A stretch of DNA of 64,000 nt from NCBI RefSeq assembly GCF_020194955.2, contig NZ_JAFCIY020000023.1:310001-374000 (forward strand), given 5' to 3'. Below the pieces are notes generated by a model. It searched no databases, was not told where the DNA came from, and saw only the letters and a program-made list of their open reading frames with translations. Shown piece after piece: positions 11,774 to 14,666 of the stretch. This stretch comes from Desulfuromonas sp. CSMB_57 (GTDB lineage: Bacteria > Desulfobacterota > Desulfuromonadia > Desulfuromonadales > Syntrophotaleaceae). The translations under genes and the position numbers were made by a program. The first letter of the stretch is position 1, and the number at the start of each line of letters is the position of its first letter.

Positions 11774-12844
11774 ATGGAAGAACGCAGCATCGCTTTTTTG
11801 CAGGCACTGGTGGAAACCCCGAGCCCGTCCGGTTTTGAACAGCCGGTCCAGCGCCTCATCCGGCACGAGTTGGCCGAGGTGGCGGATGAACTGCACACCG
11901 ATGTCATGGGCAATGTCATCGCCTGCCTGAAATCCGGGGCCGCCGATGCCCTGCGGGTCATGCTGGCCGGCCATTGCGACGAGATCGGCTTCATGGTCCG
12001 CTATATCGACGATGCCGGATTCATCTACTTTGCTCCCATCGGCGGTATCGATGCCCACCTGGTGCCCGGTCAACGGATTCAGATCCATGCTGCCGGGGGC
12101 ATCGTACCGGGGGTGGTCGGCAAGAAACCCATCCATCTCATGGAACCCAAGGACCGCGAAACCGTGGTCAAATTGACCAGCCAGTTCATCGACATCGGCT
12201 GCGCCGACGGCGCGGCGGCCCGGGAGTTGGTTGCCGTCGGCGATCCCATCACCTTCGCCGCCGGATTCCAGCGTCTGCAGGGCGAGTTGGTCTCCTCCCG
12301 CGGTTTCGACGACAAGATGGGCGCCTTCATCGTCGCCGAAGTGCTCAAAGAGGTGCGGCGCCGGGGCGCGCCGCCGGTTGAGTTGTACGGAGTGTCGACG
12401 GTCCAGGAAGAGGTTGGTCTGCGCGGTGCCACCACCAGTACCTACGGCGTCAATCCGGACGTTGGTATCGCCATCGATGTCGGTTTCGCCAGCGACTGTC
12501 CGGGGGTGGAAAAGAAGGAGCTGGGAGAATTCAAGGTCGGCGGCGGGCCCATCGTATCCCGCGGCGCCAACATCAATCCGGCGCTGTTCGACCTGCTGGT
12601 GGCCACGGCCCGGGACGAGAACATCGCCATTCAGATCATGGGGTCGCCGCGCGGCACCGGCACCGACGCCAACGCCATGCAACTGTCCCGTGCCGGGGTT
12701 GCCACGGCACTGCTGCAGGTTCCCCTGCGCTACATGCATTCGCCGGTGGAGGTGCTGTCCCTGGCCGATATCGAGGCCACCATCCGTCTGCTGGTGGCGG
12801 TGGTGCAACGCCTGAGTCGTGATTTCAGCTTCATCCCCAATTAG
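11774..12844 (+). CDS. M42-family aminopeptidase (glutamyl aminopeptidase/FrvX type)
   Basis: 356 residues. Metal-binding motifs of the M42 (tetrahedral aminopeptidase) family are visible: AGHCDEIGFMV, DDKMGAF, VQEEVGLRG (catalytic Glu pair) and AIDVGFASDCPG. The C-terminal SPRGTGTDANAMQ and MHSPVEVLSL complete the site. These enzymes trim N-terminal residues from peptides in the cytoplasm. AAGGA lies upstream of the ATG. The TAG stop coincides with the left end of a MITE-like inverted repeat element, so the original 3' end may have been altered by its insertion. Confidence 0.92.
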   Translation: MEERSIAFLQALVETPSPSGFEQPVQRLIRHELAEVADELHTDVMGNVIACLKSGAADALRVMLAGHCDEIGFMVRYIDDAGFIYFAPIGGIDAHLVPGQRIQIHAAGGIVPGVVGKKPIHLMEPKDRETVVKLTSQFIDIGCADGAAARELVAVGDPITFAAGFQRLQGELVSSRGFDDKMGAFIVAEVLKEVRRRGAPPVELYGVSTVQEEVGLRGATTSTYGVNPDVGIAIDVGFASDCPGVEKKELGEFKVGGGPIVSRGANINPALFDLLVATARDENIAIQIMGSPRGTGTDANAMQLSRAGVATALLQVPLRYMHSPVEVLSLADIEATIRLLVAVVQRLSRDFSFIPN

Positions 12845-13002
12845 TGTCCCGTGCGGTTAGTTGTGTCAAGAAATTCTGAGAAATTTTGGTTGCCGGCAAG
12901 GCGCGCCGCCGCAGGCCTAGCCAGAGTTAAGCCGAGAAGGCGGAACGCAGCCGGCGACCAAAAGGGCCGGAATTTGAAGACAGGACTAACCGCACGGGAC
13001 GC
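12844..13002. mobile_element. MITE-like hairpin element flanked by TA
   Basis: Outer terminal inverted repeats: 16 bp perfect (12846-12861 GTCCCGTGCGGTTAGT and 12985-13000 its reverse complement), extending to 20 bp with one mismatch at 12842-12861 and 12985-13004. An inner 14-bp arm pair lies at 12884-12897 and 12950-12963 (one G-U-type mismatch). TA at 12842-12843 and 13003-13004 flanks the element, as expected for IS630/mariner-type insertion. No ORF is present, so a transposase would have to act in trans. Confidence 0.7.
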
Positions 13003-13120
13003 TAGGAACAAATCAGTTCGCCGACGGGGCATGAGGCTCGGCTCCACGACTGCTGAACGGTTCCTCCAGGGTCGGTGCACCGCGTGTACCCGACTTTGGT
13101 TTTGGTGCGCCCGATAAGTC

Positions 13121-13150
13121 TTGACAGCGACCAGGCGGTTCAGTCAGAAT
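13121..13150 (+). promoter_or_regulatory. sigma-70 promoter of guaB
   Basis: TTGACA (13121-13126), 18 nt, CAGAAT (13145-13150), 40 bp upstream of the guaB ATG. It lies outside the MITE-like element. The 100 bp between element and promoter contain no gene. Confidence 0.6.
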
Positions 13151-13160
13151 GCGCGATTAA

Positions 13161-14666
<1,506 letters not shown>

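Follow-up and report, generated by a model that had tools for sequence, protein, structure and literature searches.

What is the near-palindromic stretch that separates an M42-family aminopeptidase gene from guaB in Desulfuromonas sp. CSMB_57, how did it get there, and does it matter to the genes on either side? The first-pass annotation of the window (the 64,000 nucleotides analyzed here, to which positions without a contig name refer) had proposed a MITE with TA flanks of the IS630/mariner type. Dispersed copies, a full-length insertion sequence (IS) with the same ends and an empty site all uphold that reading, and we conclude that the element is very probably a MITE, a non-autonomous derivative mobilized in trans by an IS630-family DDE transposase.

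Structure of the element at the window locus

The near-perfect 20-bp terminal inverted repeats described at first pass are present, with 19 of the outer 20 bases of both ends matching, TA included, and the longer arms (12842-12876 and 12970-13004) are 83% complementary over 35 nt. Since a TA stands on either side, as also claimed, the element proper shrinks from the 12842-13004 originally drawn to 12844-13002 (Table 1). Short (159 bp), non-coding and bounded by terminal inverted repeats, it has the build of a MITE. Folded as single-stranded DNA, the element reached -52.7 kcal/mol, whereas its shuffles averaged -25.7 (z = -8.75; 0 of 200 shuffles folded as well), and the inner hairpin arms noted earlier form part of one hairpin that takes in almost the entire element.

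Table 1. Features of the element and its surroundings (positions in the window)
Feature	Position	Strand	Remarks
M42-family aminopeptidase gene	11774..12844	+	PF05343, E 3.9e-87; TAG stop shared with the element's edge
Left TA	12842..12843	.	One of the two copies of the target TA; joined to the element's initial G, it gives the peptidase TAG stop
Miniature element proper	12844..13002	.	Non-coding, near-palindromic, 159 bp; GTG...CAC ends (CGC in this copy) lie between the TAs
Left terminal inverted repeat	12844..12861	+	GTGTCCCGTGCGGTTAGT; identical to left end of partner IS
Inner stem arm of full-length hairpin	12884..12897	+	Alignment columns 44-57
Inner stem arm, partner of 12884-12897	12950..12963	+	Alignment columns 112-125
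Right terminal inverted repeat	12985..13002	-	One mismatch versus left repeat
Right TA	13003..13004	.	The other copy of the target TA
Sigma-70-like promoter site before guaB	13121..13150	+	Outside the element; 10/12 consensus matches
guaB (IMP dehydrogenase)	13191..14666	+	Downstream neighbor; PF00478, E 1.7e-164

Copies and their distribution

A search for other copies, proposed in the first-pass annotation, rules out a single-copy element. In its own genome, an assembly of 94 contigs, it occupies 13 places (11 two-ended, 2 one-ended) whose flanks are unrelated in alignment, and the five best other copies are 93-96% identical over the full length. When as many as 3 mismatches are allowed, this genome has 18 occurrences of the 20-base end and none of the reversed control pattern; the 18 coincide with miniature copies, and the same scan revealed no long element with these ends.

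Beyond this genome, matches at E ≤ 0.001 were present in 35 of 58 genomes (its own and relatives) and matches at E ≤ 1e-10 in 67 of 136 genomes of the order. A phylum sample yielded 6 matching genomes out of 395, all from the same order and including the source genome, and the plasmid and phage collections searched with the element gave no match. Length is highly uniform: among the 70 two-ended copies of the 73 examined, 41 measure 159 bp and another 13 measure 161 bp (54/70). In G042, longer or interrupted copies appear as adjacent halves (C2:420589-420842, C5:92181-92441, C7:99624-99888 and C9:49186-49447), possibly insertions or duplications within copies, and unpaired ends in G001, G041, G038 and others look like solo or decayed ends.

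Copies in G036, which belongs to another family of the order, are 89% identical to the window element, whereas the peptidase of G016, a genome with the same family label as G036, is 52% identical to the peptidase in the window. High element identity across such deep splits fits recent acquisition or horizontal spread. Within G049, G004 and G050, copies are up to 100% identical, which suggests recent activity there.

Target site and empty sites

TA flanks both sides of 45 of the 70 two-ended copies, and 33 have the full C-TA...TA-G arrangement; exceptions to CTAG include TTA...TAG (5 copies) and GTA...TAC (1 copy). A 4-bp duplication of CTAG was considered and rejected, because the TTAG and GTAC copies keep the G and C inside the element ends, so that the duplicated unit is TA. 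These patterns support insertion at a TA within CTAG with duplication of the TA, in line with the preference of IS630 for TA in CTAG (Tenzen & Ohtsubo 1991, cited in PMC2170065).

Empty sites in relatives, another check suggested at first pass, were sought by joining the flanks of 20 copies chosen from the 70 and searching 58 genomes with them, and eight candidates were aligned. One case is clean: a G036 copy at the stop of a gene that we take to be pilB-like corresponds in G047, of the same genus, to a single CTAG within flanks identical at 189 of 201 positions. The other seven are imperfect: the G021 candidate has CTAG at the corresponding gene junction and a gap close by; those in G047 (for another copy), G011 and G020 are contiguous and lack the TA; and those in G042 (two cases) and G016 are gapped alignments. 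For the window site, we found no close relative that lacks the element and preserves the exact target.

CTAG is itself strongly avoided in the window: base composition predicts 227 sites in the 64 kb and a Markov estimate 30, yet there are 6, two of which fall within the element or on its edge. The motif is much more frequent in G002, where 100 kb contain 120 sites.

A probable partner insertion sequence of the IS630 family

An IS with matching ends, which the first-pass annotation had proposed to look for in this and related genomes, was found in relatives and not in the source genome. G025 carries a whole IS of about 1.15 kb, with ends TAGTGGCCCGTGCGGTTAGT and, reversed, TAGTGTACTGTTTGGTTAGT, that encodes a 360-aa protein matching the NCBIfam IS630 transposase profile NF033545 (E 4.8e-85) and Pfam PF13358 (DDE_3; E 3.2e-23). 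Contig ends of G039 bear this terminal repeat too, with an open frame after it. Scanning public genomes added nine loci, four of them Geobacter-labelled and one Desulfobulbaceae, to the one in G025. Seven of these ten loci hold two-ended copies, one of only 920 bp, and all seven sit at C-TA...TA-G; the remaining three are diverged or partial. Compared over the terminal 34 bp, the ends of the IS and of the MITE agree at 23-30 positions, whereas 300 shuffles per end never exceeded 21. The two ends of the partner are unequal in most cases, with GTGCGG on the left and GTTTGG on the right (L062 (G025), L109-L112, L114 and L117); some MITE copies have one end of each type and most have two left-type ends.

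In the source genome, a search with the partner protein gave 0 matches, and the IS630 profile found nothing above its curated cut-off, with 4 weaker hits, in the 94-contig assembly. Across the order, the partner was detected at E ≤ 1e-80 in only 3 of 136 genomes, one of them with an internal stop; G039 and G028 contain broken partner ends in addition. The motor is thus seldom found beside its cargo, and the copies in the source genome look stranded. Presence of the partner transposase in the host genome is not known to be a defining requirement for an IS630-mobilized MITE.

From the shared ends and target we infer that an IS630-family partner transposase moved the element. Such an enzyme would recognize roughly 18-34 bp at each end, excise the element and reinsert it at the TA of a CTAG (YTAR-like) site, with duplication of that TA; in the window, entry would have been into a TTAG overlapping the peptidase stop codon. 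The chemistry would presumably be the cut and paste described for ISY100, which inserts at TA with duplication (PMC2170065). The insertion is most likely neutral, and the copy would now be immobile unless the partner returns.

Relation to described elements

The element shares with IS630 and ISY100, as described in PMC2170065 and its references, a duplicated TA target and, for IS630, the preference for TA in CTAG, and its partner transposase matches NF033545 and PF13358; it differs in encoding nothing within its 159 bp. The partner ends and the 360-aa protein represent a group that our searches met chiefly in metagenome-derived genomes, Geobacter-labelled ones among them. Chunjie, a MITE of Geobacter uraniireducens (PMC10969869), is likewise a multi-copy, non-coding element with terminal repeats in a genus to which several partner loci are assigned, but by its description alone it measures 178-235 bp, compared with 159-161 bp for most copies here. 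The genome papers on Geobacter metallireducens, G. bemidjiensis and Pelobacter carbinolicus (PMC2700814, PMC2996986 and PMC3543383) report, in the portions available, dispersed multicopy sequences, some palindromic, and the present family may already be listed among them; compared by description, those sequences were offered as regulatory or unexplained and not as IS630 MITEs. A literature search covering search listings and the passages cited here turned up no paper that gives these ends or a name for the element family.

Our results tie an orphan palindromic repeat family found across an order to a specific IS630-family transposase and a target rule, TA in CTAG. Annotators of these genomes gain an explanation for such repeats, and the window locus offers an example of a mobile element that would have entered a stop codon and re-made it.

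Neighboring genes

The left edge of the element does supply the TAG stop of the M42 peptidase gene, as first proposed. Flanks in the window reconstruct a pre-insertion site of AAT TAG GAAC, and the element begins with G, so that TA plus this G re-creates TAG; the element thus appears to have entered a pre-existing stop codon. Among 12 relative genomes, the peptidase C terminus reads IPN in 10 and IPQ in one before TGA or TAA, and no peptidase end of this type was recognized in G007. The element was absent from all the relatives' peptidase ends read, and hence no conserved neighbor was seen. To the right, the distance to the guaB promoter-like site is 116 bp, close to the 118 bp given originally, and a search for a terminator-like site in 12700-13250 found none. 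The suggestion that the element may influence both neighbors is unsupported by these comparisons, since the relatives' peptidases end at the same residues and the promoter-like site lies well outside; neither the peptidase gene nor guaB appears visibly changed by the insertion.

Copies of the family often lie at TAG stop codons. The sides of copies fall at TAG stops of open frames in frame in 34 of 109 cases, against 16 and 16 in the other two frames, and exceed a pooled CTAG background (88 of 566 sides; p = 0.0002). Most of that background, however, comes from G002, whose many CTAG sites rarely coincide with stops. In the source genome, 7 of 16 copy sides against 38 of 146 CTAG sides is no clear excess, and in G026 37 of 156 CTAG sides are at stops. 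A special preference for stop codons was consequently dropped. Open frames across the joined flanks gave 17 frame hits in 70 copies, although GC-rich antisense frames make such hits unreliable.

The hairpin and alternative explanations

Pairing of the arms was followed in an alignment of 30 of the 70 copies. Both partners vary in 24 of the 57 predicted pairs. Paired cells make up 96.4%, compared with 91.8% for shuffles and 33-44% when the register is slid, and none of 500 shuffles was equally high on any measure; a cell, however, stands for a sequence and not for an event, and the pairing scheme came from the same alignment. Covariation of the arms is therefore strong but not clean as a sign of constraint on the hairpin, and the pairing may stem from selection, arm-to-arm copying or founder lineages. 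It is conceivable, but we think unlikely, that the entire hairpin, beyond the ends that a transposase would bind, has been kept across the order by selection or arm-matching copying even though these genomes have all but lost the autonomous partner. If so, the element would persist through its structure, for instance as an RNA or DNA hairpin at gene ends used by its hosts, or alternatively as a mobile palindrome dependent on replication forks. The compensatory changes open a way to test which process keeps MITE palindromes: selection, copying from arm to arm, or descent alone.

The same pairing, together with the frequent placement at TAG stops, is what a structured RNA or regulatory hairpin family (an attenuator, 3' UTR element or sRNA) might display if kept at gene ends and copied only incidentally. 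A strand bias of G-T over A-C sites would point to RNA; it was significant in the first 30 copies (26 versus 9) but did not hold in 39 others (27 versus 18; p = 0.23). Moreover, positions 12500-13300 had no Rfam match up to E 1, the ends are those of an IS630-family element with a duplicated TA target, no neighbor is conserved, the peptidase ends read in relatives lack the element, and the excess at stop codons is largely that of CTAG sites anyway. We consider such an RNA family very unlikely as the explanation.

Being palindromic, without a transposase in cis and, in the genome samples screened, confined to a single bacterial order, the repeats also recall REP/REPIN or IS200/605-like palindromes mobilized in single-stranded form by a tyrosine (Y1) transposase. 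True terminal inverted repeats, the TA duplication at CTAG and ends belonging to a DDE (IS630) element make this highly improbable, and IS200/605 elements are not known to duplicate their target. A palindrome arising by chance in intergenic DNA has next to no probability: it is refuted by the copy number in the source genome and across the order, by the depth of the fold and by the count of the 20-base end against its control. Mobilization of a MITE by an IS630-family transposase accordingly stays our preferred reading.

A second repeat family

Another TA-flanked palindromic repeat family, with ends TAGGAGGCTGTCGGACTATCC, was observed at about 167 bp in the source genome (G000:C57:127698-127864 and C57:189801-189967, corresponding to L224:7698 and L227:9801) and at 74-92 bp in G026 (L154:429-502 and L156:411-502). 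The element studied here abuts the end of this second family in G026 (L154 and L156) and in G000 C57.
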